Shown here: positions 4,511-54,558 of the stretch, piece by piece
Numbering within the stretch: position 1 is the stretch's first letter
Layout of the letters: each line of letters begins with the position of its first letter
Notes under the pieces: model-generated
Told to the model about the DNA's origin: nothing
Seen by the model: only the letters and a program-made list of their open reading frames with translations
Databases searched by the model: none
Assembly (NCBI GenBank): GCA_903910585.1
Contig: CAIWAH010000376.1
Span: forward strand, 1 to 64,000
Direction of reading: 5' to 3'
Origin: an uncultured Verrucomicrobiota bacterium
Lineage (GTDB): Bacteria; Verrucomicrobiota; Verrucomicrobiia; Limisphaerales; UBA9464
DNA length: 64,000 nucleotides
Translations under genes and position numbers: made by a program

Positions 4511-4990
4511 ATGAAATTGCTGTCCCGCAACCCAGAGGCCTTGGTCTTCCGCATCTCGAAGCGGGAGCACGAAGCCCTGCTCGTGGCCTTGCGCCTTCGT
4601 TCCCACCTTTCCCGCTCCCGCCGGCCCATCGCCAGCGATACACCGCGGGAAGACCGGGTGCGCACGGCCGAGGAAGACTTGGCGGAAGCGATGAAGGAGC
4701 ACCGTCAGGAACTGACCCAGGGCACGGAAAACCTGCTGGCGGATGCGGAAAAGTGCGTTCCGCAGAAGGGGGGCGGTTACCACCTGGAACTCAATCCGGC
4801 CGATTCCGAAATGCTCCTGCAGGCGTTGAACGACCTCCGTGTAGGTGCTTGGGAGAAGCTGGGGCGGCCTGACATTGAGGGCGGTGACCGGCCCGAGCTG
4901 AATGACGAGAATTTCCTCTGTTTTTGGGCCTTCCAGGTCACCGACCTGTTTCAGGGCGAGTTGCTGGCTGCGCTTACTGGGGAGGAGTGA
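4511..4990 (+). CDS. DUF2017-like protein, coupled to aat
   Basis: A 159-residue, mostly helical, charged cytosolic protein without signal or membrane segment. Its C-terminal part has a leucine-rich LQALNDLRVGAWEKLG motif followed by LFQGELLAAL. This resembles the 'LNDLR...LG...LQE.LV..L' ending of DUF2017 proteins, which in Actinobacteria sit beside the N-degron adaptor gene clpS. The stop codon overlaps the aat start (TGATG), so the two are translationally coupled. A role in the N-degron pathway is inference from both contexts. I start at the ATG giving MKLLSRNPEALVF because the upstream in-frame extension overlaps the preceding gene and has no conserved look. Confidence 0.65.
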   Translation: MKLLSRNPEALVFRISKREHEALLVALRLRSHLSRSRRPIASDTPREDRVRTAEEDLAEAMKEHRQELTQGTENLLADAEKCVPQKGGGYHLELNPADSEMLLQALNDLRVGAWEKLGRPDIEGGDRPELNDENFLCFWAFQVTDLFQGELLAALTGEE

Positions 4991-5646
4991 TGGTAGCCCT
5001 GCTGGATGATGGCCTGTGGTTTCCGGATCCGCGGAAAGCCCGCTCCGACGGCTTGGTGGCGGTGGGAGGCGACCTGTCTGTGGAGCGGTTGTTGCTGGCA
5101 TATCGCTGCGGCGTGTTTCCGTGGAGTGCGGAACCCATCACCTGGTGGTCCCCGAGTCCGCGCGCCATTTTTGACCTGGACCACATCCACATTTCCCGAA
5201 GTTTGGCGCGAACGTTGCGTAAAGGTTCGTTCGAAGTAACTTATGATGAGGATTTTGAGGGGGTGATCCGGGGGTGCGCCGATGCTCCGCGAAGGGAAGG
5301 TCAGACTTGGATTTCCCCGGAGTTCATCGCGGCCTACACCCGTCTCCATTACGCGGGACACGCCCATTCCGTGGAAGTCTGGCACGAAGGCCAGTTGGCC
5401 GGAGGGATTTACGGGGTGGCCGTGGGCGGGTTGTTTGCCGGTGAGTCGATGTTCCACCGGGTCACCGATGCCTCCAAGATCGCCTTGGTCCACTGCGCCC
5501 AACGCCTGCGCGAACGGCGGTTCACGCTGTTTGACACCCAGATGGTGACCAATGTCACCTCGGCCCTGGGCGCCTTTGAAATCGGCCGCAACGAATATCT
5601 GACCCGCCTCTCCAGCGCGGTGTTCCGGAACTGCGACTTCGTGTGA
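4990..5646 (+). CDS. aat: Leucyl/phenylalanyl-tRNA-protein transferase
   Basis: A 218-residue enzyme that transfers Leu or Phe from aminoacyl-tRNA to proteins with N-terminal Arg or Lys, creating bacterial N-degrons for ClpS/ClpAP. Family signatures are clear: LVAVGGDLSVERLLLAY.CGVFPW near the N-terminus, ITWWSPSPRAIF, SVEVWHEGQLAGGIYGVAVGGLFAGESMF in the acetyltransferase-like core, and FDTQMVTNVTSALGAFEIGR near the C-terminus. Length matches the family. The ATG overlaps the stop of the preceding DUF2017-like gene (ATGA-type overlap). clpS and clpA are not in the window. Confidence 0.96.
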   Translation: MVALLDDGLWFPDPRKARSDGLVAVGGDLSVERLLLAYRCGVFPWSAEPITWWSPSPRAIFDLDHIHISRSLARTLRKGSFEVTYDEDFEGVIRGCADAPRREGQTWISPEFIAAYTRLHYAGHAHSVEVWHEGQLAGGIYGVAVGGLFAGESMFHRVTDASKIALVHCAQRLRERRFTLFDTQMVTNVTSALGAFEIGRNEYLTRLSSAVFRNCDFV

Positions 5647-5678
5647 AATCTCCTCCGGTTGGTGGGGGGCATTGGGAC

Positions 5679-5698
5679 TTTGTGAAAAAAATCACAAA
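5679..5698. promoter_or_regulatory. CRP/FNR-type palindromic operator upstream of the nuo operon
   Basis: A perfect inverted repeat TTTGTGA-N6-TCACAAA with an A6 spacer lies in the 127-base gap between aat and nuoB, about 75 bases before the nuoB start. The TGTGA-N6-TCACA core is identical to the E. coli CRP consensus half-site arrangement. A CRP/FNR-superfamily regulator of complex I expression is therefore plausible. The regulator is not in the window and I could not place a convincing -35/-10 pair. Confidence 0.6.
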
Positions 5699-5773
5699 TG
5701 CCACTTGCCGCTCCGGCGGACCGATTCCAATCTCCGCCCGCCGGCGTGAATCCACGTCGGTGCCGTTGTTTTT

Positions 5774-6370
5774 ATGGCCAATCCTGTCACCGCCACTGCC
5801 CCCAACGTCACCGAGTTCGGTTACAACTCGAAAGTGGAGGGGGAAGTCATTCACACCACGGTGGATGCGGCAATCAACTGGTTCCGGAAAAACTCGCTCT
5901 GGCCCATGCCGATGGGCTTGGCGTGCTGCGCCATTGAGCTGATGGCGGTGGGGGCGAGCCGCTTCGACATCAGCCGGTTTGGCTCGGAGGTCATGCGCTT
6001 TTCGCCGCGCCAGTCCGACGTGATGATTGTGGCCGGCACGGTGACCTACAAGATGGCCCTCGCGGTCCGGCGCATTTACGAGCAGATGGCCGAGCCCAAG
6101 TGGGTCATCGCCATGGGCGCCTGCGCCTCGACGGGCGGCATGTATCGCAGCTATGCTGTGCTTCAGGGGGTGGACAACATCGTTCCGGTGGATGTCTATG
6201 TGGCCGGCTGTCCGCCGCGCCCGGAAGCGTTGCTGGATGCTCTGATGAAGCTTCAGGGGAAGGTCGCCAAGGAGCCGTTCTTGCGTGATTGGAAGCGCGA
6301 CGCCGCGCCCGAGAAATACGGCCGACTGGGCCTTGAGCTCGGCGAAAAGGGCGAAGTCGTTCACCGCTAA
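5774..6370 (+). CDS. nuoB: NADH-quinone oxidoreductase subunit B
   Basis: A 198-residue peripheral-arm subunit of complex I that binds cluster N2, the last iron-sulfur centre before quinone. Its four cysteine ligands are all visible: the adjacent C51-C52 in [11 protein letters not shown]117 in MGACAST and C146 in [12 protein letters not shown]. It is the first nuo gene on this strand, with aat upstream and nuoC 12 bases downstream. nuoA, normally just before nuoB, is missing from the window. The CRP-like palindrome at 5679-5698 may control the operon. Confidence 0.98.
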
Positions 6371-6382
6371 CCCGCTGTCATC

Positions 6383-6964
6383 GTGCCCACTCCCCTCGAA
6401 CTGGCCCAGCAACTGCGCGACAAGTTCCCGGAACTGCTGTCGGCACCCGGAGAATTCCGCGGCGAAGTCTCCCTGACCGTGGCCGATGCGGACCGAATCG
6501 CCGATGTCTGCCGTTATGCCAAGGCGGAGTTGGGCTTCGACCTGCTGCTCGACCTGAGCAGCGTGGACAACTACGGCGACGATCCCCGCTGGACGGTGGT
6601 GTATGAGCTCTACGGTGTCGCCCATGCCTGCCATTTGCGACTGAAGGCGAGCGTCAGTGAGGAGAAGTCGGAGCTGCCGACCGTTTCGACCGTCTGGCGC
6701 ACGGCCGATTGGCATGAGCGCGAGGCTTACGACATGATGGGCATCCGGTTTTCGGGTCACCCGGATCTCCGCCGGATCCTGATGTGGGACGGCTACCCGT
6801 ATTTCCCCCTGCGGAAAGACTTCCCGTTGGCCGGCAAGCCGACCGAATTGCCGGAAGTCGCCTTCACCCGGCCGGCGCCGCTGGAAGGCGGACCTTTCAT
6901 CACCACGGCCAGCAATGACGGCTCGATGCAACGCGAGCCGCGGGCGAGGACTCCGGAGGAATAA
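6383..6964 (+). CDS. nuoC: NADH-quinone oxidoreductase subunit C
   Basis: A 193-residue 30-kDa-type subunit of the complex I connecting module. The diagnostic segment WHEREAYDMMGIRFSGHPDL, followed by RRILMWDGYPYFPLRKDFPL, lies in the C-terminal half. The start is GTG (VPTPLELAQQL), 12 bases after nuoB. No in-frame ATG nearby gives a better N-terminus. NuoC and NuoD are separate proteins here, unlike the fused NuoCD of enterobacteria. The stop is 4 bases before the nuoD ATG. Confidence 0.96.
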   Translation: MPTPLELAQQLRDKFPELLSAPGEFRGEVSLTVADADRIADVCRYAKAELGFDLLLDLSSVDNYGDDPRWTVVYELYGVAHACHLRLKASVSEEKSELPTVSTVWRTADWHEREAYDMMGIRFSGHPDLRRILMWDGYPYFPLRKDFPLAGKPTELPEVAFTRPAPLEGGPFITTASNDGSMQREPRARTPEE

Positions 6965-6968
6965 TTTC

Positions 6969-8240
6969 ATGGCTGTTCAGGAAATCACCTTCAAGGACAC
7001 CGCCGCCCGGAGTGCCGTGGGGGCAGCCGACGAGCTTCGCGATCTGGAGGGCGACAAGATGGTCCTCAACATGGGGCCGTCACATCCGTCCACCCACGGG
7101 GTGCTCCGCATCCTGATCGAGATGGACGGCGAGACGATCACCAAGGCGATGCCGGACGTGGGTTACCTGCATCGCGGCGACGAGAAGATCGCCGAGAACA
7201 TGACGTGGAACCAGTTCATCCCCTACACGGACCGGCTGGATTACCTCGCGACCATCGCCAACAACGTCGCCTATTCGCTGGCGGTGGAAAAGCTCCTCGG
7301 GATTCACGACAAGCTGCCGCCCCGGTGCCAATACATCCGCGTCATCTGCTGCGAGCTGGCCCGGATTTCCGCCCATCTCCTCGGCCTTGGCGCCTACGCG
7401 ATGGATGTCGGTGCGCTGACGGTGTTCATGCACACGTTCACGGAACGTGAGAAGATCTACAATTTCTACGAAGCCCTGACTGGCGCCCGGTTTACCACCA
7501 GTTACACCCGCATCGGTGGTGTGTCCCGTGACACTCCGGCCGGCTGGTGTGACCAGATCCGGAAGTTTTGCGACGAAGTGGTCGTCAACTTCGACGAATC
7601 GGAGAAGCTGCTCACCCGCAACCGCATCTTCGTGGACCGCACCCGCGACGTCGGGATCATCTCGAGGGAACTGGCGGTGGATTACGGCCTAACCGGACCG
7701 AACCTTCGCGGCAGCGGCGTGGCCTATGATGTGCGCAAGGCACATCCGTATCTCTGCTACGCAGACTTGGACTTCGATATCCCGGTCGGTTCCGTAGGGG
7801 ACTGCTACGACCGGTATCTCGTGCGCATGGAGGAGATGCGACAGAGCGTCCGGATCATCCGGCAGTGCCTCGACCGGATTCCCGGCGGCTTCGACAACGC
7901 CTCGAAGGAGCCGGTCAACGTGGCCGATGGCAAAATCGTGCTTCCGAAGAAGGACCGGGTGCTGTCCAGCATGGAGGAACTGATCCATCAGTTCATGCTG
8001 GTGACGCAGGGCGTGAATTGTCCGCCCGGCGAGGTGTATTTCGGGGCGGAGAATCCGAAGGGCGAGCTGGGCTTTTACATCAACAGCCGTGGAGGCGGCA
8101 CGCCGTATCGCCTCAAAATCCGGGCCCCGTCGTTCGTCAATCTCAGCATTCTGCCGGCAATCCTGCCCGGCCACCTGATGAGTGACGTGGTGTCCATCCT
8201 CGGTTCGTTCGATTTCGTGATGGGTGAATGCGACCGCTAG
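6969..8240 (+). CDS. nuoD: NADH-quinone oxidoreductase subunit D
   Basis: A 423-residue 49-kDa-type subunit that, with NuoB, forms the quinone-binding cavity. Recognisable blocks are NMGPSHPSTHGVLRILIEMD near the N-terminus (quinone-site His-containing loop), GYLHRGDEKIAE, TWNQFIPYTDRLDYL, LTGPNLRGSGVAYDVRKAHPY and the C-terminal SILGSFDFVMGECDR. The last is the usual NuoD ending and supports the assigned stop. Start is the ATG at MAVQEITF; an in-frame extension would overlap nuoC. Confidence 0.97.
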   Translation: MAVQEITFKDTAARSAVGAADELRDLEGDKMVLNMGPSHPSTHGVLRILIEMDGETITKAMPDVGYLHRGDEKIAENMTWNQFIPYTDRLDYLATIANNVAYSLAVEKLLGIHDKLPPRCQYIRVICCELARISAHLLGLGAYAMDVGALTVFMHTFTEREKIYNFYEALTGARFTTSYTRIGGVSRDTPAGWCDQIRKFCDEVVVNFDESEKLLTRNRIFVDRTRDVGIISRELAVDYGLTGPNLRGSGVAYDVRKAHPYLCYADLDFDIPVGSVGDCYDRYLVRMEEMRQSVRIIRQCLDRIPGGFDNASKEPVNVADGKIVLPKKDRVLSSMEELIHQFMLVTQGVNCPPGEVYFGAENPKGELGFYINSRGGGTPYRLKIRAPSFVNLSILPAILPGHLMSDVVSILGSFDFVMGECDR

Positions 8241-8253
8241 CAAACCACCGCCG

Positions 8254-8745
8254 ATGACTTTTTCCGTTCCCTCCAGCCTAGAAGCCCAGCTCGACGAGTT
8301 GGCCACGCACTATCCGGTCAAACGGAGCGCGTCGCTGATGTTCCTGCACGCGCTGCAGGAACACTTCGGGCACATCACCGACGAGGCCATCGAATGGACC
8401 GCCCGCAAACTCGGGCTTCAGCCGATCAACGTGCTCGAATTGGTGACGTTTTACCCGATGTTCCGGCGGGAGAAGCTGGGGCGGACGCACGTCAAGGTGT
8501 GCCGCACGCTCAGTTGTGCCCTCGCCGGCAGCGGTGAGTTGCGCGAGCACTTCTGCAAAAAGCTGGGGCTGGACCCGCATGCCCACGCTCCCCAGACGAC
8601 GCCGGATGGCAAGTTCACCGTCGAGTTTGTGGAGTGCCTGGCCGACTGTGGCAACGCCCCGGTGGTGTTGCTGAACGACGATCTGCTGCCCAAGGTTTCA
8701 ACGGCACAGGCCGACGAAATCATCGCGAAAGGGAAGGGGCTTTGA
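8254..8745 (+). CDS. nuoE: NADH-quinone oxidoreductase subunit E (24-kDa 2Fe-2S)
   Basis: A thioredoxin-fold [2Fe-2S] subunit (cluster N1a) of the NADH dehydrogenase module, 163 residues from this ATG. Cluster ligands are in VCRTLSCALAG and ECLADCGNAPVVLLN. The N-terminal helix region SASLMFLHALQEHFGHIT is typical. A GTG at 8224, overlapping the end of nuoD, is an alternative in-frame start adding ten residues; neither start has a clear ribosome-binding site. The gene is followed by 132 bases holding an antisense tRNA before nuoF. Confidence 0.95.
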   Translation: MTFSVPSSLEAQLDELATHYPVKRSASLMFLHALQEHFGHITDEAIEWTARKLGLQPINVLELVTFYPMFRREKLGRTHVKVCRTLSCALAGSGELREHFCKKLGLDPHAHAPQTTPDGKFTVEFVECLADCGNAPVVLLNDDLLPKVSTAQADEIIAKGKGL

Positions 8746-8750
8746 AGAAT

Positions 8751-8824
8751 TGGCTGCCCGACATGGATTTGAACCATGACAAGCAGATTCAGAGACTGCT
8801 GTGCTACCGTTACACCATCGGGCA
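8751..8824 (-). tRNA. tRNA-Gln (anticodon CUG), antisense inside the nuo operon
   Basis: Read on the minus strand, the sequence folds as a complete cloverleaf. The acceptor TGCCCGA pairs with TCGGGCA over 7 bp. The D arm is GTGT/GCAC around AACGGTA. The anticodon stem GCAGT/TCTGC has loop CTCTGAA (anticodon CTG, with a T-T mismatch at the base). The T arm is CATGG/CCATG around TTCAAAT. It ends with discriminator G and an encoded CCA. The U1-A72 pair and G73 are identity elements typical of bacterial tRNA-Gln. It lies between nuoE and nuoF on the opposite strand. Confidence 0.93.
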
Positions 8825-8877
8825 GGCCGGAAGCGGGCGAGAAACTAGTGACGTGAAGGTTTGAGTCAAGCATTGCC

Positions 8878-10305
8878 ATGCCGGAACAGCATAAATTGAT
8901 TTTGAAGCACGCCGATTCCCCCGGTTACACGCCGGACATCGAGTGCTACGTCCGTCACGGTGGCTACGAGGCGCTGAAGAAGGCGCTCGGCACGGCGCCG
9001 CGGGAATTGCCCGATGGCAAGAAGCTTTCGGCCCAGGAAGTTGTCCGCGAGGACGTGAAAGCCTCCGGCCTGCGCGGACGCGGCGGTGCCGGTTTCAGTG
9101 CGGGCCTAAAGTGGAGCTTCGTGGACCGCCGCAGCGGCAAGCCCATTTACCTGATTTGCAACGCCGACGAGTCGGAACCCGGCACGTTCAAGGACCGCCA
9201 GATTATCCACAAGGATCCGCACCAGTTGGTCGAGGGCATGATCATCTCGTGCTGGGCCAACGACGTGAAGCTCGCCTACATTTACATCCGCGGCGAGATG
9301 CCTCACGGCGCACGGTTGCTCGAAAAGGCGCTCGCCGAGGCGCGGGCGAAAAACTTCCTCGGGAAGAACATTCTCGGCACCGGTTACGATCTCGAAATTT
9401 ACGTTCATCGCGGTGCAGGTGCCTACATTTGCGGCGAGGAAACCGGCCTGATCGAATCTCTGGAAGGCAAGCGTGCGTATCCGCGCATCAAGCCGCCGTA
9501 TTTTCCGGCTGTGCTCGGGCTCTACATGTGCCCGACCATCGTGAACAACGTGGAGACGCTCTGCCACGTGAAGCACATCGTCACGATGGGGCCCGCCGAA
9601 TACGCGAAGCTCGGCACACCCAACAACACCGGCACCCGCATCGTCAGCCTCAGCGGCGACGTGCAGAAGCCCGGTTATTTTGAGATCGAGGTCGGCAAGG
9701 TCACGTTGGGCCAGTTGATTTTCGATGCCAACTTCGGTGGCGGCCTCAAGCCGGGGCGCTCTCTCAAGGCGATCATTCCTGGCGGCTCGTCCTCGAAGGT
9801 TCTGAAGGCTGGCGAGGTCTTCAAGCTGAACCGCAAGGGCGCCGACGGCCAGATGACCAAGGTGGATGTGCCGCTGCTGGACCTCCCCTACGATTTTGAT
9901 TCGCTGCAGGGGGCCGGAACCATGTCCGGTTCGGGCGCCATCATCGTGATGGACGATTCCCGCAGCATGGTGGACACCTTGGCCAATCTCTCGGAGTTCT
10001 ACGCGCACGAAAGTTGCGGCCAATGCACGCCGTGCCGCGAAGGTTCGCTGTGGATGGCCAAGGGGTTGCACCGGTTGGCGCACGGGGACGGGCGCAAACA
10101 GGATGTCGAATACCTGTCGCACATCGCCCAAAATATCCAGGGCCGCACCATCTGCGCATTCGGCGAGGCCGCCGCGTGGCCGGTCCTCAGCTTCGTGAAG
10201 AAGTTCAAGGACGAGTTCGTGGCCCGGGGCGAAGCCGACGAGGCCGCCAAATCGGCCGGTCCCAGCCGCGAACTCAAACTGGCCGCCAGCCCGAACCCGC
10301 ACTGA
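8878..10305 (+). CDS. nuoF: NADH-quinone oxidoreductase subunit F (51-kDa, FMN/NADH-binding)
   Basis: A 475-residue subunit that oxidises NADH and passes electrons through FMN to cluster N3. Visible signatures are the glycine-rich SGLRGRGGAGFSAGLKW (FMN/NADH site, about residues 62-78), CNADESEPGTFKDR, AYICGEETGLIESLEG, and the [4Fe-4S] motif ESCGQCTPCREGSLW with the fourth cysteine in RTICAFGEA. The C-terminus carries a short charged extension (EADEAAKSAG). It follows the antisense tRNA-Gln gene, and its stop is 11 bases before nuoG. Confidence 0.97.
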   Translation: MPEQHKLILKHADSPGYTPDIECYVRHGGYEALKKALGTAPRELPDGKKLSAQEVVREDVKASGLRGRGGAGFSAGLKWSFVDRRSGKPIYLICNADESEPGTFKDRQIIHKDPHQLVEGMIISCWANDVKLAYIYIRGEMPHGARLLEKALAEARAKNFLGKNILGTGYDLEIYVHRGAGAYICGEETGLIESLEGKRAYPRIKPPYFPAVLGLYMCPTIVNNVETLCHVKHIVTMGPAEYAKLGTPNNTGTRIVSLSGDVQKPGYFEIEVGKVTLGQLIFDANFGGGLKPGRSLKAIIPGGSSSKVLKAGEVFKLNRKGADGQMTKVDVPLLDLPYDFDSLQGAGTMSGSGAIIVMDDSRSMVDTLANLSEFYAHESCGQCTPCREGSLWMAKGLHRLAHGDGRKQDVEYLSHIAQNIQGRTICAFGEAAAWPVLSFVKKFKDEFVARGEADEAAKSAGPSRELKLAASPNPH

Positions 10306-10316
10306 TTTCCGCCAAC

Positions 10317-12032
10317 ATGTCCAACGCCGCGACAACTGCCCCCGCGCCCGCTGCGCCGCCGCCGGTCGAGAAGATCCGGATCAAGGTGGACGGCCGTGAC
10401 GTCGAGGTGCCGAAGCTGCTGCCCAACTGGCAGGGCAAGCTGGAGCCCACCACCATGCTCCAGGCCATCCAGATCGCGGGTGGCGAGGTGCCGCATTACT
10501 GCTACCACCCGAAGCTGCCCGTCGCCGGCAACTGCCGCATGTGCCTCGTCGAGTTCGGCACGCCGATGATCGGCCCGGACCGCAAACCGGTGCTCAACGA
10601 GGACGGCTCGCCCAAGATCGCCAAGTCCGTGCTGCCCTACGAGCCGTCCACGCCGCGCGGGGCCATCGCCTGCGCGACGCCGATCTCGCCGGGCATGGAG
10701 CTGTATCCGAATTCGCCCGCGACCAAGCAAATGCGCGAGGCGGTGCTGGAATCGCTGCTCATCAACCATCCGCTGGACTGCCCGATCTGTGACCAGGCCG
10801 GCGAATGCAAGCTGCAGGAATACTCCGTGCAGCACGGCCAGGCGACCAGCCGCTTCGTGGAAGCGAAGGTTCACAAGCCCAAGGCGGTGGACCTGGGCCC
10901 GCGTATCGTGCTCGATGACGAACGCTGCGTGCTGTGCACCCGCTGCATCCGGTTCTCGAAGGACATCGCCGGCGACGACGCGCTGGGCATCGTGAACCGC
11001 GGTTCCTACAACACCATTGCGGCGTGGAAGGAGGGCGCATTCGACAACAACTACACGCTCAACACCGTGGACCTCTGTCCGGTGGGCGCGCTGACCTCGA
11101 AGGATTTCCGCTTCAAGATGCGGGTCTGGTTCCTCAAGGAAACCAAGAGCGTCTGCACGAGCTGCGGCACCGGCTGCAACATCACGGTGGGTTCCCGCGA
11201 GGGCGCCATTCACCGCTATGAGCCGCGCGAGAACGACGCGGTCAACGGGCCGTGGATGTGCGATGCCGGCCGGCTGAACTACAAATGGGTGGCCCGCGAA
11301 GATCGCCTGAAGGACGTCCTGATCCGCGGTGCAAAGGCTGGTTGGAACACGGCCCTGAAGGAGATTTCCGCGAAGCTGGCCGCCGCACCGCAAGGCAGCG
11401 TGGCGTTGATCGCCAGCGCACGGCAGACGACCGAGGAACTTTTCCTGCTGGGCAAACTGGCTCGGAAGCTGGGCGCGCTCACAGATTCCGTGCCGCGCCT
11501 GGGGGAAGGGGACCGTCTGCTTGTGAATGTGGACAAGAACCCCAACATGAACGGGGCCTGGCTGACCGGGGTGGCCGCGGTTCCGGCGGCCGGCGGCCGC
11601 CTTGGGCTGATCGCGGAGGCGATTCGCAGCGGCCAGGTGCGGACGCTGATCGTGTTCGGCGAAGACGTGACAAAGTGCGGCATCGGAACGGACCTGCTCG
11701 CAAAGCTGGAGACGCTGATCGTCAGCGACATTTTGCCCAGCGCTACGACTGCCACCGCGACCTACCTGTTGCCGGGCTGCGCGCATGCCGAAAAGCGGGG
11801 CACGTTCGTCAATGCGAAGGGCCGCGTGCAAAAGTTCATGAAGGCGGTCGAGCCGAAGGGCGACGCCCGCGCCGAGTGGGAGTTCCTGCACGAGTTGGTT
11901 CACAACGTCACCGGCCAGAACGGCTTCAGCACCATCGAGGGGCTGTTCAACCAGATGGCCGCCGAGGTGCCGGCGTTCAGCGGACTCGAATGGGCCAAGC
12001 TCGGGGACACCGGTGTCACCGTGCAGATTTAA
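10317..12032 (+). CDS. nuoG: NADH-quinone oxidoreductase subunit G (short form)
   Basis: A 571-residue iron-sulfur subunit. It holds a [2Fe-2S] site (C62, C73, C76, C119), a His/Cys [4Fe-4S] site in HPLDCPICDQAGEC, a second at C204-C207-C210 with C254, and an N7-type set C280-C283-C287 with C315. The molybdopterin-oxidoreductase-like tail runs only from about residue 330 to 571, much shorter than the roughly 900-residue E. coli protein. An Ala/Pro-rich N-terminal leader (about 17 residues) precedes the ferredoxin fold. I start at MSNAATTAP after the nuoF stop. Confidence 0.95.
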   Translation: MSNAATTAPAPAAPPPVEKIRIKVDGRDVEVPKLLPNWQGKLEPTTMLQAIQIAGGEVPHYCYHPKLPVAGNCRMCLVEFGTPMIGPDRKPVLNEDGSPKIAKSVLPYEPSTPRGAIACATPISPGMELYPNSPATKQMREAVLESLLINHPLDCPICDQAGECKLQEYSVQHGQATSRFVEAKVHKPKAVDLGPRIVLDDERCVLCTRCIRFSKDIAGDDALGIVNRGSYNTIAAWKEGAFDNNYTLNTVDLCPVGALTSKDFRFKMRVWFLKETKSVCTSCGTGCNITVGSREGAIHRYEPRENDAVNGPWMCDAGRLNYKWVAREDRLKDVLIRGAKAGWNTALKEISAKLAAAPQGSVALIASARQTTEELFLLGKLARKLGALTDSVPRLGEGDRLLVNVDKNPNMNGAWLTGVAAVPAAGGRLGLIAEAIRSGQVRTLIVFGEDVTKCGIGTDLLAKLETLIVSDILPSATTATATYLLPGCAHAEKRGTFVNAKGRVQKFMKAVEPKGDARAEWEFLHELVHNVTGQNGFSTIEGLFNQMAAEVPAFSGLEWAKLGDTGVTVQI

Positions 12033-12038
12033 CGCGAC

Positions 12039-13133
12039 ATGGATTCGATCAAGTATCTCGACCCCACGACGCAGTTCGTGCTCTTCAGCATCCTGAAGGT
12101 GATGCTGGTCTTCGCCGTGGCGATGACCGGAGTGGCCTATTCGGTGCTGGTCGAGCGCAAGGTGTCGGCCTGGATTCAGGACCGGCCGGGTCCCAACCGC
12201 GTGGCGCCGTTCTTCGTGGAGTTCATTCCGGTGATCGGCCCCTGGCTCACCCGCCTGGGCATCTTCCAGCCGATGGCGGACGGACTGAAGTCTTTCCTCA
12301 AGGAGGACTTCACACCCAGCTACGTGCGGAAGGTCTATTTCTGGCTCGCGCCGGCGATCGCCTGCGTGCCGTCGCTGATGACCTTGGCCGTGATTCCGTT
12401 CGGTTCGACGCTGGGCAATGCGGCGAACAAGATGGTCATCGCGGACCTCAATGTCGGCATCCTCTACTCGTTCGGCATCGTGTCGCTGGGCGTTTACGGC
12501 ATCGTGCTGGCAGGCTACGCAGCCAACTCCAAATACCCGTTCCTCGGCGGCATCCGTTCGAGCGCCCAGATGATCTCCTACGAGATTGCGATGGGCATGA
12601 GCGTCGTCGCGGTGTTTCTGCTGGTGGGCGATCTGAACCTCTCTTCGGTGGTGGACTACCAGCGCGGCGGACTGCACCAATGGCTGATCTGGAAGCAGCC
12701 GCTGGCGTTCGTGATCTTCATGATTGCGGCCTTCGCCGAAACGAACCGCCTGCCGTTCGATTTGCCGGAGTCCGAAACCGAACTCGTCGGCGGCTACCAC
12801 ACGGAATACAGCTCGATGAAGTTCGCCCTGTTTTTCATGGGCGAATACGCCGCGATGATCGCCGCTTCCGGCATGATGGTGACGCTGTTCCTTGGCGGCT
12901 GGAGTTCGCCGTTCGGCAGCGAGCCGGCCGGGACGATCCTCGGCGGACTGGTTCATATCGGCTGGTTCCTCGCGAAAGTGGCCGCCCTGATGGTAGTCTT
13001 TATCTGGACCCGCTGGATGCTGCCCCGCTTCCGCTACGACCAATTGATGGATCTCGGCTGGCGGAGGTTCATTCCGCTGGCGTTGGCCAACATCCTCGTC
13101 ACCGCACTGATCGTCGCCTTCACCCACAAGTAA
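12039..13133 (+). CDS. nuoH: NADH-quinone oxidoreductase subunit H
   Basis: A 364-residue membrane subunit linking the quinone cavity to the proton-pumping arm. Family motifs are LVERKVSAWIQDRPGPNRV in the first cytoplasmic loop, FQPMADGLKSFLKED, and FAETNRLPFDLPESETELV followed by GGYHTEYSSMKFALFFMGEY in the conserved quinone-site loop. About eight hydrophobic segments are visible. Six bases separate it from nuoG and from nuoI. Confidence 0.97.
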   Translation: MDSIKYLDPTTQFVLFSILKVMLVFAVAMTGVAYSVLVERKVSAWIQDRPGPNRVAPFFVEFIPVIGPWLTRLGIFQPMADGLKSFLKEDFTPSYVRKVYFWLAPAIACVPSLMTLAVIPFGSTLGNAANKMVIADLNVGILYSFGIVSLGVYGIVLAGYAANSKYPFLGGIRSSAQMISYEIAMGMSVVAVFLLVGDLNLSSVVDYQRGGLHQWLIWKQPLAFVIFMIAAFAETNRLPFDLPESETELVGGYHTEYSSMKFALFFMGEYAAMIAASGMMVTLFLGGWSSPFGSEPAGTILGGLVHIGWFLAKVAALMVVFIWTRWMLPRFRYDQLMDLGWRRFIPLALANILVTALIVAFTHK

Positions 13134-13139
13134 ACCCGC

Positions 13140-13709
13140 ATGAGCACCAAGGTTGTTGATCGCGCGCCGCTGACGTTCTACGAGCGCACCTACCTGCCGG
13201 CCATCCTCGGCGGAATCAAGGTCACGTCGAAACATCTCTTCAACACCCTCGTGAAGGGCAAGGCGGTCACGATGGAGTATCCTGAGCAGAAGTGGGTCGT
13301 GCCCGCCGGCTATCGCGGGGCGCCCTACCTGGTGAAGGATCAGGACGGTGCGACGAAATGCGTGAGCTGCCAGCTCTGCGAATTCGTCTGTCCGCCCAAG
13401 GCCATCAAGATCACGCCGCCCGGTCCCGAAGGCCAGCCCGCCGACCGCGCCAACGCGGAGAAGATGCCCCGAGAATTCGAGATCAATATGCTCCGGTGCA
13501 TCTTCTGCGGCTTCTGCCAGGAAGTCTGCCCGGAGGAGGCGATCTTCCTGCAGAAGGACTACTCGCTTACCGGCCAAAGCCGCGAGGAGATGATCTACAA
13601 CAAGGAGAAGCTCCTGAAACTCGGCGGCACCCATGCCGGTATCCAGAAGTGGAAACACAAGCTGGAGGAGGCGAAGGAACAGGAAACCTTCCCGGTCCCG
13701 ACCCCATAG
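13140..13709 (+). CDS. nuoI: NADH-quinone oxidoreductase subunit I (2x[4Fe-4S])
   Basis: A 189-residue ferredoxin-type subunit carrying clusters N6a and N6b. Two classical 8-iron motifs are present: CVSCQLCEFVCPPKAI and CIFCGFCQEVCPEEAI. Upstream KWVVPAGYRGAPYLVKDQDG matches the conserved 'R..G.P.L' lead-in. The C-terminal tail is longer than the minimal family and rich in Lys and Glu, perhaps contacting neighbouring subunits. It is preceded by nuoH and followed after 9 bases by nuoJ. Confidence 0.97.
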   Translation: MSTKVVDRAPLTFYERTYLPAILGGIKVTSKHLFNTLVKGKAVTMEYPEQKWVVPAGYRGAPYLVKDQDGATKCVSCQLCEFVCPPKAIKITPPGPEGQPADRANAEKMPREFEINMLRCIFCGFCQEVCPEEAIFLQKDYSLTGQSREEMIYNKEKLLKLGGTHAGIQKWKHKLEEAKEQETFPVPTP

Positions 13710-13718
13710 TTTCCCGCC

Positions 13719-14222
13719 ATGCCCGCCCTGACTGACTTACTTTTCTACGGCTTCGCCGGACTAGCCCTCCTGTTCGGGTTCCTGTGCGTTGCGAACCCGC
13801 TCAGCCGCAATCCGGTGACCAGCGCGATGTTCCTCGTGCTGACGATCTGCTCGCTGGCAGGGCTGTTCGTGTTGCTCAACGCCTTCTTCCTCGCGGCCGT
13901 GCAGGTATTGGTTTACGCCGGTGCCGTGATGGTGCTTTTCCTCTTCGTCATCATGCTGCTGGACCTCAAGGAAGAGGAGCGGCGCAAGCTGAACAAGGTC
14001 GCGCTCGGCGCCGGCACCGTGGCGGTGGCCGTCATCGCGGGCATCCTCATCCGGGCGGTCACTTCGGCGAAACCCGCTGCTGACAAGCTGGTGGAAGGAA
14101 CGACCAAACCGCTGGGCCGGATTCTTTTCACCGAATACCTCCTGCCGTTCGAGATCCTGTCGCTGCTGCTGTTGGTTGCGATGGTCGGCGTCATCCTGCT
14201 GAGCAAGAAGGAGCTGAAATGA
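13719..14222 (+). CDS. nuoJ: NADH-quinone oxidoreductase subunit J
   Basis: A 167-residue membrane subunit with five likely transmembrane helices. The conserved [20 protein letters not shown] segment (TM3, holding the functional pi-bulge region) followed by [16 protein letters not shown] is diagnostic. The last helix ([20 protein letters not shown]) ends at the stop, which overlaps the nuoK ATG by four bases (ATGA), indicating coupled translation. Confidence 0.96.
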
Positions 14223-14530
14223 GCCTCACTCCCGGACTTCACCACTTCCTCGTCGTCAGCGCCCTGTTGTTCAGCCTCGGGCTGCTCGGCGTGCTGGCCC
14301 GGCGCAATCTGCTCGTCATCTACATGGGCCTCGAGCTGATGCTGAACGCCGCCAACCTGGCGCTGGTCGCCTTCTCCCGCTTCAACGCCAATCTTAACGG
14401 GCAGGTGATGGTGTTCTTCATCATCACGGTGGCCGCCGCCGAGGTCGCGGTCGGTCTGGCCCTGATCGTCGCGCTCTACCGCAAGCGCCAGTCCGCGCAC
14501 GTCGAAGACCTCACCAGCCTGAAACTCTGA
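14219..14530 (+). CDS. nuoK: NADH-quinone oxidoreductase subunit K
   Basis: A 103-residue, three-helix, MrpC-like subunit of the proton-pumping arm. The functional glutamate-containing [20 protein letters not shown] (TM2) and [18 protein letters not shown] (TM3 with the second conserved Glu) are intact. It overlaps nuoJ by four bases and is followed by a 126-base gap dominated by a dispersed inverted repeat before nuoL. Confidence 0.96.
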
Positions 14531-14537
14531 CTTTTGG

Positions 14538-14639
14538 AACCGCAGATGAACGCAGATAAACGCAGATCAAGGATCGCTGGAACTGGAACGGCCCGGCCCT
14601 CGGGTTTCCATCTGCGTCCATCCGCGTTCATCTGCGGTT
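14538..14639. repeat. Imperfect inverted repeat (30-bp arms) of a dispersed PVC-type element
   Basis: The left arm 14538-14567 reads AACCGCAGATGAACGCAGAT and continues AAACGCAGAT. The right arm 14610-14639 is its reverse complement at 27 of 30 positions. Each arm is built from a roughly 10-bp unit ([A/T]AACGCAGAT) repeated three times. Similar 'CGCAGAT/CGCGGATT' tandem-palindromic sequences are, from general knowledge, scattered through verrucomicrobial and planctomycete genomes; I saw no second copy here. The hairpin would form in the nuo mRNA between nuoK and nuoL. Confidence 0.8.
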
Positions 14640-14656
14640 AAATTCCCTTTCCTGAA

Positions 14657-16678
14657 ATGGACGTCCACGCCGCCCACAACGCCGTCACCGCCGCCGCCCC
14701 GGCCTTCAGTTCGCGGCCGGAGGACATTGCCTGGTTCATCCTGCTGCTGCCGCTCCTCGCGGCGGCCGGCATCACCCTGATCGTGCGCCGGAGCAACTTC
14801 CTCGCGGCAACCTTCTCCATCGCGGCGACGGTCACCGCCTTCGTGCTCAGCTTCGTGCTGTTCCTGATGTTCGGTGTGGGAGATGCCGCCGCGGTCACGT
14901 CGCCGTTTGCGTGGCTGCATGCCGGCGAACTGGCGGTGAATCTCGGTGTGACCGTGGACAAGCTGTCCACGCTCATGCTGCTGGTGGTGACCGGGGTTTC
15001 GGCGCTCGTGCAGGTTTACAGCGTCGGCTACATGCACGGCGACCGCAGCTTTCCGCGCTTCTTCATCGGCCTGAGCCTGTTCACCTTCTCGATGCTCGGC
15101 ATCGTGCTGGCGGACAACTTTGTGATGATGTTCCTGTTCTGGGAACTCGTCGGTGTGTCCAGTTGGCTGCTGATCGGCTTTTGGTATGAGAAGGAATCCG
15201 CTGCTGACGCCGCTAAAAAGGCCTTCCTGACGAATCGTCTCGGCGACTTTGGCTTCCTGCTGGGCATCATCATCATCTGGGCGGCGGCCGGCACGGTGAA
15301 CTTCGCTGAACTGAGCCAGAAGCTCGGGGCGCATCCTGATCTGCTCGGCAGCCTCGCTTCGGTGGCCGGCCTGCTGGTGTTCATGGGCGCGATGGGCAAG
15401 AGCGCGCAATTCCCGCTGCATGTCTGGTTGCCGGACGCCATGGAAGGCCCCACGCCGGTATCGGCGCTGATTCACGCCGCGACCATGGTGGCCGCTGGCG
15501 TTTACATGCTCTGCCGGGTGTTCTTCCTGTATCAGGTGGAGACCGCCTGGCCGGCGGCGTTGGCGTTCTTTGGCAGCATTTCGGCTTTGGACATCATCGG
15601 CGGCATTGGTGCCTTCACGGCCCTGCTCGCGGCGCTGATGGCGATCCAGCAAAACGACATCAAGCGCATCCTCGCCTACTCGACGCTGTCGCAGCTCGGA
15701 TACATGGTGATGGCGGTCGGCTGCGGCGGTCCGGATGCGGCGATGTATCATCTGACGACGCATGCCGGCTTCAAGGCTCTGCTGTTCCTCGGCGCCGGGT
15801 CCGTAATCCATGCCTGCCATCACGAGCAGGACATCTGGAAGATGGGCGGGCTGCGCAAACTGATGCCGAAGACCTTCCTGACGTTCGCGCTGGGCACGGC
15901 AGCCCTGGCCGGACTGCCGCCGCTGAGTGGGTTCTACTCGAAGGATGCCGTCCTGTTGGCCGCCCTCGACAATGGTCATCCGGTCCTTTTCGGGCTGGGC
16001 GTGCTCATCGCGGCGATGACGACCTTTTACATGCTGCGGTTGGTGCTGGTGGCGTTCTTGGGAAGCGGCCGGAGCGAGGCCGCGGGGCACGCTCACGAAT
16101 CTCCCGGTGCCATGACTTGGCCCCTGGTCATTCTCGCGGTGCCGAGCGTCATGCTGGCGTGGGTGCCGCTGGGCGATTATCTGACGCACCATTTCTTCAC
16201 CGACCACGGCCATGTCCACGGCCACGGCAGTGAGGTGATTTCGTTCGGGGCCACCATTTCGGCGGCGTTCGGTCTGGTGAACCACATCCTGTTCGAGCCG
16301 TTTAACCACGCCCCGCTGCCCGCCTTCCTCGGCACCGGTGCGTTGATCATCGGCGCGTGGATTGCGGTGACGCTTTACTGGAATGCGGAACGCGATCCGC
16401 TGCCCAAGCTGTTGGGTTCCTTTGCCCGCGGCATGCGGAACCGCTTTTACTTCGACGAGATCTACGAGGCCATTTTCATCCCGTTGCACGACCTGGTGGC
16501 GCGGTTGGCCGACTGGTTCGACCGCTGGGTGGTCGGCGGACTCGCGGTTCGCGGGGCACATGGCAGCACCGAATTGCTGGGCCGGGCCCTCCGCATTGTG
16601 CAGAGCGGCAATCTGCAGACCTACACCTTCTTCTTCGTGGCCGGCGTCGCGCTGGTCGTCCTGATCGCCCTCAAGTAG
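14657..16678 (+). CDS. nuoL: NADH-quinone oxidoreductase subunit L
   Basis: A 673-residue antiporter-like proton-pumping subunit with about 16 membrane helices. Recognisable blocks are FFIGLSLFTFSMLGIVLADN, the Glu-containing MFLFWELVGVSSWLLIGFWY, GKSAQFPLHVWLPDAMEGPT and VSALIHAATMVAAGVYMLCR, and the lysine-bearing QNDIKRILAYSTLSQLGYM. The C-terminal part carries the long amphipathic (HL) helix region and a final TM helix (FFFVAGVALVVLIAL). A His-rich loop (HHFFTDHGHVHGHG, around residues 512-525) precedes the C-terminal helices. Confidence 0.96.
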   Translation: MDVHAAHNAVTAAAPAFSSRPEDIAWFILLLPLLAAAGITLIVRRSNFLAATFSIAATVTAFVLSFVLFLMFGVGDAAAVTSPFAWLHAGELAVNLGVTVDKLSTLMLLVVTGVSALVQVYSVGYMHGDRSFPRFFIGLSLFTFSMLGIVLADNFVMMFLFWELVGVSSWLLIGFWYEKESAADAAKKAFLTNRLGDFGFLLGIIIIWAAAGTVNFAELSQKLGAHPDLLGSLASVAGLLVFMGAMGKSAQFPLHVWLPDAMEGPTPVSALIHAATMVAAGVYMLCRVFFLYQVETAWPAALAFFGSISALDIIGGIGAFTALLAALMAIQQNDIKRILAYSTLSQLGYMVMAVGCGGPDAAMYHLTTHAGFKALLFLGAGSVIHACHHEQDIWKMGGLRKLMPKTFLTFALGTAALAGLPPLSGFYSKDAVLLAALDNGHPVLFGLGVLIAAMTTFYMLRLVLVAFLGSGRSEAAGHAHESPGAMTWPLVILAVPSVMLAWVPLGDYLTHHFFTDHGHVHGHGSEVISFGATISAAFGLVNHILFEPFNHAPLPAFLGTGALIIGAWIAVTLYWNAERDPLPKLLGSFARGMRNRFYFDEIYEAIFIPLHDLVARLADWFDRWVVGGLAVRGAHGSTELLGRALRIVQSGNLQTYTFFFVAGVALVVLIALK

Positions 16679-16684
16679 CCCGCC

Positions 16685-18202
16685 ATGTCTCCGCTCACCT
16701 CGCTGCTCCTGACCCCGTTTCTCGGCGCCCTGCTAATTGCGATTGTGCCGGGCAACTACCGGGTCGTGCATCGCGCCCTCGCGCTGTTCACCGGACTGCT
16801 GATGCTGCTCCAGGCGCTCGTCATCTTCGCCGGGTTCCAAGGCGGCGGGACCGGACTGCAGTTTGAGCAATTCGCGGAATGGATCCCCTCGGTCGGGCTC
16901 AATTACCACGTCGGCGTGGACGGGCTGAATGTCGGCTTGGTCCTCATGGCGGCGATCGTCTCGTTCGCGGCCATCTGCGCCGCTTGGGAGGTCGAACGGC
17001 AGGTGAAGCTGTTTTATCTGCTGCTGCTCTTGACCACCGGCGGCGCCATCGGGGCGTTCATCTCGCTCGACCTGTTCTTCCTCTACTTCTTCAATGAACT
17101 CGCGCTGGTGCCCACCTTCCTGATGATCGGCATTTGGGGCCGCGGCGAGCAGCGGAACTACGCGACCTTCCAGATCACGCTCTACCTGACGCTCGGCGCG
17201 CTGGTCGCGCTGACCGGCCTCATCGCGCTCTACGTGACCTCCGGCGTGAACACCCTGGATGTCGTAGCACTCAAGGCCGTTCTGGCCGAGAAGCCGCTCG
17301 CGGAATCGGCGCAGAAGCTGATTTTCCCGCTCCTGCTGCTCGGCTTCGGGACGTTGGTCGGCCTCTGGCCGTTCCATTCGTGGGCGGCACCGGGATATGC
17401 CGCCGCTCCGACGCCGACTGCCATGATGCACGCGGGCGTGCTCAAGAAAGTCGGCCTGTATGTGCTGATCCGGGTCGCGTGGCCGTTCATGCCGGTCGGC
17501 GTGCAGGAATGGCTGCCCGCGCTGGCGCTGCTCTGCCTCGGCAACATCCTTTACTGCGGCTGGGTGGCCATGCGGCAGCGCGACTTGGCCCTGCTGCTGG
17601 GCAATTCCAGCCTGGCCCACATGGGTTTCTGTTTCCTGGGACTGGCCAGTCTGAGCGTCGTGGGCATCACCGGCGTGGTGCTGATCATGGCGGCGCACGG
17701 CCTGTTGGCCGCCCTGAGCTTCGCGCTGAACGGCTACCTGCACACCCGCTGTGGCACGACCGACATGGACAAGCTCGGCGGACTGCTCCGGCAAATGCCG
17801 TTCATCGGCACCGCGATCGTGATGGCGTTCATGGCCGGGTGCGGCTTGCCCGGCTTCGCCAATTTTCCGGGCGAACTCAGCGTGATGTTCGGCGCCTGGA
17901 AGACGCTGCCTTGGTTCGTGGTTGCCGCAGCCTGGGGCGGACTGGTGATCGGCGGCGTTTACATGCTGCGGGCCATCCGGGCGGTCGTTCACGGGCCGGC
18001 GAAGGCTGACTTCAACCATGTGGGTGATGCCAACTACTGGCGGCGTCTGCCGTTCCTGGTCCTGCTGGCGGCGCTCATCTGGTTTGGCATCCGGCCGGAT
18101 TCGCTTGCCACCTCCATCCAGCCGGTCGTCGCCGAGATTGTGAAGTCGGCGGCTCCCACCCAACCGACGCCGGCGCCCGCTGCGGTGGCCGCCACCCACT
18201 GA
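16685..18202 (+). CDS. nuoM: NADH-quinone oxidoreductase subunit M
   Basis: A 505-residue antiporter-like subunit with about 14 membrane helices. Typical segments are NYHVGVDGLNVGLVLM, FISLDLFFLYFFNELALVPT with the conserved Glu, LLLLGFGTLVGLWPFHSWAA, APTPTAMMHAGVLKKVGLY, and FMAGCGLPGFANFPGELSVM near the C-terminus. Family 'P.HTWLPDAH'-type residues are replaced by PFHSWAAPGYAAAPT, a common NuoM variant. It lies six bases after nuoL and twelve before nuoN. Confidence 0.96.
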   Translation: MSPLTSLLLTPFLGALLIAIVPGNYRVVHRALALFTGLLMLLQALVIFAGFQGGGTGLQFEQFAEWIPSVGLNYHVGVDGLNVGLVLMAAIVSFAAICAAWEVERQVKLFYLLLLLTTGGAIGAFISLDLFFLYFFNELALVPTFLMIGIWGRGEQRNYATFQITLYLTLGALVALTGLIALYVTSGVNTLDVVALKAVLAEKPLAESAQKLIFPLLLLGFGTLVGLWPFHSWAAPGYAAAPTPTAMMHAGVLKKVGLYVLIRVAWPFMPVGVQEWLPALALLCLGNILYCGWVAMRQRDLALLLGNSSLAHMGFCFLGLASLSVVGITGVVLIMAAHGLLAALSFALNGYLHTRCGTTDMDKLGGLLRQMPFIGTAIVMAFMAGCGLPGFANFPGELSVMFGAWKTLPWFVVAAAWGGLVIGGVYMLRAIRAVVHGPAKADFNHVGDANYWRRLPFLVLLAALIWFGIRPDSLATSIQPVVAEIVKSAAPTQPTPAPAAVAATH

Positions 18203-18214
18203 CCCCTTTCGCCG

Positions 18215-19688
18215 ATGAACTACTCGCTTCTGACCATCGAGATTCTGGTGACGCTGCTGGGCCTGGGCGTCCTGCTGGCTGACCTGTGGGTGCCGGCCTC
18301 GTTGCGGCGTCTGATTGGCTACGGCGCTGCCACAATGGCGGGAATCATCCTGACCTACGCCATCGGCGGGGCTGCCCCGGAAGATGGCACGGCGTTCGGC
18401 GGCATGTTCGTTGTGGACGCCATGTCCAACCTCTTCAAGGGCCTGTTCCTGCTGGCGGCGGTCGTCGTGCTGCTGCTTTCCCTCGACTGGTCGGAAAAGC
18501 TGGTCGGTTATGCTGAATACTGTGCCCTGACCCTGTTCGCCCTCGTCGGAATGCTGTTCGCGGCCTCGGCCAACGACTTCATCCTGATGTTCGTCGCGCT
18601 CGAGTTGATCACGATCACATTCTACATCCTGGTCAGCTTTCAGCGGAACAAGGCCGGCTCCATTGAGGCTGGCGTGAAGTATCTGATCCTCGGGGCGGTT
18701 GCCTCGGGCTTTATGGTCTTTGGCGCCGCGCTGATTTTCGGGGCTGCGAACACGACCAACTTCTTCTTGATCGCCGCGAAGCAGATGGAACTGGCGAAGT
18801 CGCCGCTGTTCCTGACCGGACTGCTGCTCACGGTGGTCGGCCTTGGCTTCAAGATCGCCGCGTTCCCGTTCCAGATGTGGGCGCCGGACGTTTATCAGGG
18901 TGCACCGGCGCCGACCGTGGCGTTTCTGGCCACCGGCTCGAAGGCGGCCGGATTCGTCCTGTTGCTTCGCATCGCCTTCGGCGTCGTGCCGGAACTTACC
19001 GCGCAGTGGAGCAAGCTGTTCTTGGGCTTCGGGGGTGGTGACGATCCTCTACGGCAGCCTGTGCGCCATCCCGCAGCGCAGCGTGAAGCGCATCATGGGT
19101 TACAGCTCGATTGCCAACGCGGGCTATCTCCTGCTCGGCATCGCGGCGGCGAGCCTGAACGGTTCCGCTGCCGTGATGACCTACCTCGGCGGTTATGTCT
19201 TCACCGTGCTGACGGCCTTCGCCGCGATCAGCGTGGTGGCGGCTCACACCGACAGCGATGACATCAGTGCGTTTGCCGGGCTCGGTCAGCGCTCGGCGTG
19301 GCTGGCGACGGCACTGACGGTGGGCATGGTCAGCCTCGCAGGTATTCCGCCGCTCGCCGGCTTTTTCGCCAAGTTCTACCTTTTGCGTTCTGTCGCGGAA
19401 CACGTCGCGTCCGACCGCGCCTATCTGGTCGCACTGTTGATTGCCTGCGCCGGCGTGGTCATCTCGCTTTATTACTATTTTGGCGTGCTGCGGTCCGCGT
19501 TCTTCCCCCGCCAAGCCGTTGACCTTTCCCGCATTACGGTCAGCGGAACGACCAAAGTCGCCATCATGCTGGCGATCGCCGGCACCGTGTATCTCGGCTT
19601 GGAACCCGAGCCGTTGGTGAAGAGTGCGAAACAGGCCGCGGCCGGTCTCACGACGTTGCCCGAAGCTGCGCAGACCGCGGCCAAGTAA
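18215..19688 (+). CDS. nuoN: NADH-quinone oxidoreductase subunit N, interrupted by a one-base frameshift
   Basis: The first frame starts at 18215 (MNYSLLTIEILVTLLGLGV) and carries normal NuoN blocks up to about 19030 (APTVAFLATGSKAAGFVLLL, then LFLGFG). The remainder, VVTILYGSLCAIPQRSVKRI to the end at 19688, is in the +1 frame and contains the conserved VKRIMGYSSIANAGY and SLAGIPPLAGFFAKFYLL. The switch falls at the five-G run 19031-19035. Removing one G restores a 490-residue protein of normal NuoN length with no other damage. A sequencing or assembly indel is the likeliest cause. A real mutation or programmed slippage cannot be excluded. Confidence 0.9.

Positions 19689-54462: not shown

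Positions 54463-54558
<96 letters not shown>

Follow-up and report, generated by a model that had tools for sequence, protein, structure and literature searches.

An antisense tRNA-Gln(CUG) gene upstream of nuoF is a conserved, inherited feature of the complex I gene cluster in Limisphaerales

The window analyzed here, a 64,000-nucleotide stretch of contig CAIWAH010000376.1 from an uncultured member of the Limisphaerales (Verrucomicrobiota; assembly GCA_903910585.1), carries a complex I (nuo) cluster on the plus strand comprising nuoB, nuoC and nuoD (5774 to 8240; PF01058, PF00329 and PF00346), nuoE (8224 to 8745, start codon uncertain; PF01257, E 1.8e-42), nuoF (8878 to 10305; PF01512, E 2.1e-46, and PF10589; the same ATG is the start in relatives) and nuoG to nuoM (10317 to 18202; identified by Pfam, the nuoG start being read from the sequence). 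An additional antiporter-like open reading frame (ORF) follows nuoM at 18215. The cluster opens with nuoB behind a leucyl/phenylalanyl-tRNA transferase gene, and a Pfam search of the cluster start (4924 to 5774) did not find nuoA (PF00507); two nuoA matches are located elsewhere, at C376:65579-65860, 1.6 kb past the window end, and at C391:12874-13173. Between nuoE and nuoF, both of which are intact according to Pfam, ARAGORN identified a 74-nucleotide tRNA-Gln gene with a CTG anticodon on the minus strand (8751 to 8824, CCA encoded at 8753 to 8751), 5 bp past the nuoE stop (8745) and 53 bp ahead of the nuoF ATG. Its full-length match to RF00005 (model positions 1 to 71; E 1.4e-10) reaches 60.3 bits, well above the gathering score of 29, which together with the Gln anticodon bears out the preliminary description of a complete tRNA-Gln(CUG) on the strand opposite to nuo, for which covariance scoring had been proposed as a check. 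Among the tRNA-Gln genes found in this 89%-complete assembly, CUG occurs at this single site and the other one, UUG, on a separate contig. Glutamine codons in the nuo genes counted are CAG in 61 cases versus CAA in 14, indicative of a demand for tRNA-Gln(CUG), whose charging and use in translation are predicted. A second tRNA gene within the window, tRNA-Ser(GCT), is found at 54463 to 54555 on the plus strand (ARAGORN).

Using NuoF as an anchor, we examined the region upstream of nuoF for tRNA genes in 70 fetched genomes of the order, namely the 30 best NuoF matches and 40 chosen genomes (G025, G029, G033 and G052, which also have nuoF, were left out of the fetch). An antisense tRNA-Gln(CTG) gene occurs no more than 400 bp upstream of nuoF in 68 of these 70 genomes, representing 29 families, and the remaining two (G036 and G049) end at a contig edge, so that the synteny of the nuoE-nuoF gap, which the preliminary description had proposed comparing in relatives, is the same in 68 of 68 informative genomes. 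Fourteen of 14 further genomes of the order also fit, based on a comparison of tRNA and nuoF coordinates only. The recurrence of the same tRNA in the same place and orientation is far from chance, and the antisense tRNA before nuoF is an old, strongly conserved and inherited arrangement of the order. The tRNA is likewise carried by 76 of 80 named loci; in three of the misses (L105, L106 and L127) the upstream sequence is no longer than 107 bp, and L135, with 267 bp and no tRNA, is a possible exception since gaps of up to 351 bp occur in other members. The nearest named NuoF relatives are Verrucomicrobiota MAGs, some titled Limisphaerales or Pedosphaera, and the titles of some relatives (Akkermansia, Proteobacteria) look like loose labels. 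As the named and unnamed sets overlap, identical stretches were removed to leave 107 distinct loci, one of which (L087) was dropped from the distance counts below because its start codon was not mapped. Two genomes of the same order, G283 and G307 (the latter showing only 26 tRNAs), have neither nuoF nor tRNA-Gln(CUG) and keep tRNA-Gln(UUG); we rejected this joint loss as proof of linkage, as the two absences are not independent and one missing stretch would remove both genes.

The tRNA keeps a narrow distance to nuoF (median 53 bp, interquartile range 51 to 60), 85 of the 106 distinct loci falling within 44 to 66 bp, and a loose one to nuoE (median 35 bp, interquartile range 5 to 129, extremes of -33 and 732 among the distinct loci). 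In relatives, it is the gap between the nuoE stop and the tRNA 3' end (8746 to 8750 in the window) that varies and is prone to insertions: nuoE and the tRNA are separated by 2 to 9 bp in the window and many other members and by 1376 bp at L062, and six loci have no nuoE in reach. Ten long nuoE-tRNA gaps were opened and eight contain an ORF of at least 150 amino acids, all eight in the nuo direction; the ORF inserted in L062 is an acyltransferase with a clear PF01757 match. Later insertions thus recur, and they do so between nuoE and the tRNA. In L026 and L132 this gap holds a 151-amino acid ORF, followed in L132 by one of 55 amino acids; the former, tested for L132, gave a sub-threshold PIN match (E 0.017), the latter gave no Pfam match, and they could represent a toxin-antitoxin pair. 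A related ORF of 187 to 200 amino acids is found at the same place in several lineages (L072, L097, L126, L129 and L138), overlapping a conserved ORF of 63 to 66 amino acids in L072, L097 and L129; the 200- and 66-amino acid ORFs of L072, the two tested, had no Pfam match. In four genomes the cluster is split, nuoD being 265 kb from nuoF in the one-contig genome G302 and on a different contig from nuoF in G044, G198 and G076, with no nuoB to nuoE seen in the 5 to 8 kb next to the tRNA. The tRNA is kept beside nuoF in all four, and these distances and gene orders show its linked partner to be nuoF, not nuoE. A Shine-Dalgarno-like core precedes nuoF in 4 of 106 distinct loci; a loose version is also absent from 9 of 11 other genes checked, and we therefore build nothing on this count.

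The 53-bp segment common to the putative tRNA promoter on the minus strand and the nuoF leader on the plus strand (8825 to 8877) contains a minus-strand -35-like element TTGACT (8864 to 8869), of which TTGAC is present in all 106 distinct upstream regions, and, after a 16-bp spacer, a -10-like element TAGTTT (8842 to 8847) matching the consensus at three of six positions. A GC-rich leader (8825 to 8841, minus strand) extends from the -10 element to the tRNA, and a similar stretch precedes some other tRNA genes of the genome. The pattern TTGACN-N15..18-TANNNT, 5 to 25 bp before the tRNA, was found in 104 of 106 distinct regions (103 with a 16-bp spacer), the two misses being L158 and G076 (L183), and in 0.17% of single-base shuffles, a comparison for which the pattern was chosen after seeing the aligned sequences. 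A stricter consensus promoter scan of 8200 to 9200 returned no promoter-like site and left the window's own TTGACT copy unflagged, and a looser form of the motif was present in 4 of 12 regions examined upstream of tRNA genes of this genome, this tRNA included. In those rows with extra DNA ahead of nuoF in which the motif could be followed, it remains close to the tRNA, as expected if it belongs to the tRNA. Taken with the -35 and -10 elements, a spacer of 16 to 18 bp and a short distance to the gene, all features of a sigma-70-type site, this conservation among relatives identifies the motif as a promoter-like element of the tRNA with a predicted start site. No bidirectional or leaderless nuoF promoter was seen by eye in the 53 bp. 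Longer promoter-nuoF gaps in L116, L120, L146 and L167 are filled by short tandem-like repeats of the CGTTTCAA and AATCGTAA types.

The preliminary description held that nuo transcription would cross the tRNA in antisense and that tRNA transcription would oppose nuo; the geometry is right on the first point, and the tRNA's own opposing promoter-like motif agrees with the second, such that interference between the two would follow from their arrangement. The same description added that nuoF-N expression could be lowered relative to nuoB-E, which is a hypothetical outcome. No plus-strand promoter-like site was found before the tRNA in the window (consensus scan of 8200 to 9200), and a loose plus-strand motif is present in 1 of 52 distinct nuoE-tRNA gaps of at least 45 bp, suggesting that nuoF-N transcription in intact clusters is most simply explained by read-through from nuoB-E; the uniform direction of the long inserted ORFs was counted in favour of this. 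Among the split clusters, G302 and G044 have a nearly identical block of about 50 bp (TTGACT-N17-TTTACT) before the tRNA, pointing at nuoF and set in differing flanks, a candidate known from two genomes of one genus. If this block is the nuoF promoter, the nuoF message there would also carry the antisense tRNA in its leader. We considered and rejected the idea that the antisense tRNA gives the nuo mRNA a structured leader, as the RNA has no excess stability (z -0.13). Behind the tRNA, 102 of 106 distinct trailers have no hairpin plus T-run within 80 nucleotides and four have one; no intrinsic terminator was found in the window at 8200 to 9200, so transcripts of the tRNA may extend in antisense into nuoE before Rho or processing ends them. 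Among the nuoE-tRNA gaps of at least 30 bp that were listed, intrinsic terminators comprise none on the plus strand and three weak ones on the minus strand.

Outside the order, 42 genomes (20 plus 22) of other orders of the class were surveyed, of which 41 are informative, G122 being without a nuoF start. Forty of the 41 have no such tRNA, and in the first 20 genomes nuoE ends at most 91 bp from nuoF in 14. In a NuoF tree of 97 rows, made by a quick method and having moderate supports, the order forms one clade (aLRT 92), and the nearest row to that clade, G075, is without the tRNA. The one positive genome, G076, is the only member of its own order in the set, and its NuoF groups elsewhere in the tree, among lineages without the tRNA. 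In this genome (L228, G076:C26) the tRNA-Gln(CUG) lies before nuoF, the nuo genes are split and tRNA-Pro and tRNA-Arg genes are about 2 kb away. One putative gain in the stem of the order explains the arrangement within it; for G076 a further gain, a transfer or multiple losses must be invoked, and a single origin does not cover everything.

Transfer RNA genes are common integration sites, and the preliminary description suggested that the placement may mark a past insertion. This stands in so far as it refers to a single ancient event, since nuoE mostly adjoins nuoF in other orders and the NuoF sequences of this order form one clade, and fails as a recent integration. Recent integration of a mobile element at the tRNA gene could be argued from the genes inserted beside it in some relatives, but is hardly credible given order-wide conservation, a single NuoF clade, intact nuoE and nuoF, and a search of the 64-kb window (up to three mismatches) for an att-like repeat of the tRNA 3' end, whose single match was the tRNA itself; synteny, the NuoF clade and the absence of a duplicated 3' end together led us to reject it. 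We consider it probable that a working housekeeping tRNA was captured once, when its gene came to lie between nuoE and nuoF in the order's common ancestor, and that it has been inherited vertically since. The tRNA would be transcribed leftward from the conserved motif, towards nuoE, and nuoF-N rightward across it, by read-through from nuoB-E in intact clusters and, in split ones, from a promoter of its own ahead of the tRNA. With opposing directions over the tRNA, each process would briefly block the other, an effect that we guess to be mild. Since the 53 bp would serve both genes, moving the tRNA would cost either its promoter or the nuoF leader, and the arrangement would persist; this "locked in" argument appears to fit the data.

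Two other readings of the site concern its transcription. The tRNA promoter could be a regulatory antisense promoter, its unterminated transcript into nuoE and the attendant polymerase collisions tuning the N-module genes nuoE, nuoF and nuoG to growth rate, as the general lack of a hairpin and T-run behind the tRNA would allow. Regulation is made a fair rival by a case from unrelated bacteria, the conserved, highly expressed antisense RNA of Streptomyces that RNA-seq shows to start inside nuoF and run through nuoE (PMC3765725; PMC8388888) and for which a role as an assembly checkpoint of complex I has been proposed (PMC3765725). Repression by antisense promoters scales with promoter strength in E. 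coli constructs (PMC4731013). We nevertheless regard this reading as unlikely, because several genomes have hundreds of bp or a whole gene between the tRNA and nuoE, the four split genomes keep the tRNA beside nuoF although nuoE has left the site, the sense RNA there shows no unusual fold, and polymerases on translated messages are modelled to survive or avoid about 85% of head-on collisions (PMC4731013). Quite unlikely is its growth-linked form, an antisense valve in which, under fast translation, strong tRNA synthesis would oppose nuo transcription at nuoE/nuoF and so set the NADH-oxidising module relative to the other parts; it would be a tRNA-based equivalent of the Streptomyces RNA, to which it is unrelated. 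Alternatively, the tRNA might be the border of two transcription units, every member having a dedicated nuoF-N promoter close to the tRNA or ahead of it, with little transcription crossing from nuoB-E. The four split clusters, which need a separate nuoF promoter, and the candidate plus-strand block of G302 and G044 make this a tentative possibility, but nuoE often ends within a few bp of the tRNA, plus-strand promoter-like sites were not seen at 8200 to 9200 in the window and are missing from nearly all of the gaps scanned, and every gene inserted in the nuoE-tRNA gap is oriented like nuo.

The nearest parallel that we found is the Streptomyces antisense RNA, whose location coincides with that of the tRNA without its being the same thing. 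In both cases antisense transcription, here predicted, leaves the nuoE/nuoF region in the direction of nuoE and the arrangement is kept within a bacterial group, but the Streptomyces RNA, in the text available from its reports, starts inside nuoF and involves no tRNA, whereas here a tRNA with its motif lies upstream of nuoF and is known from sequence. The opposing transcription through one short stretch resembles that of face-to-face promoters, although those described in the available part of PMC4731013 are synthetic and measured, and the present pair is natural and predicted, with a tRNA as the opposing product. As with bacterial bidirectional promoters (PMC12825309), two genes leave a short common segment in opposite directions; the promoters covered in the accessible portion of that report have pseudo-symmetric common elements, whereas no plus-strand promoter-like element was seen in the 53 bp. 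A literature search that covered few subscription journals found no paper on a tRNA gene in the nuo operon of these bacteria, and PMC3620526 was discarded as a precedent, as "nuo operon", "tRNA gene" and "antisense" occur in unrelated passages of the text available. One would expect a tRNA opposing a core respiratory operon to be costly and soon lost, but this one persists throughout an order. With its tight, spaced and split variants, the arrangement offers a naturally replicated experiment on how head-on transcription is tolerated or exploited by cells, and the antisense tRNA-Gln before nuoF is a ready synteny marker for the order.
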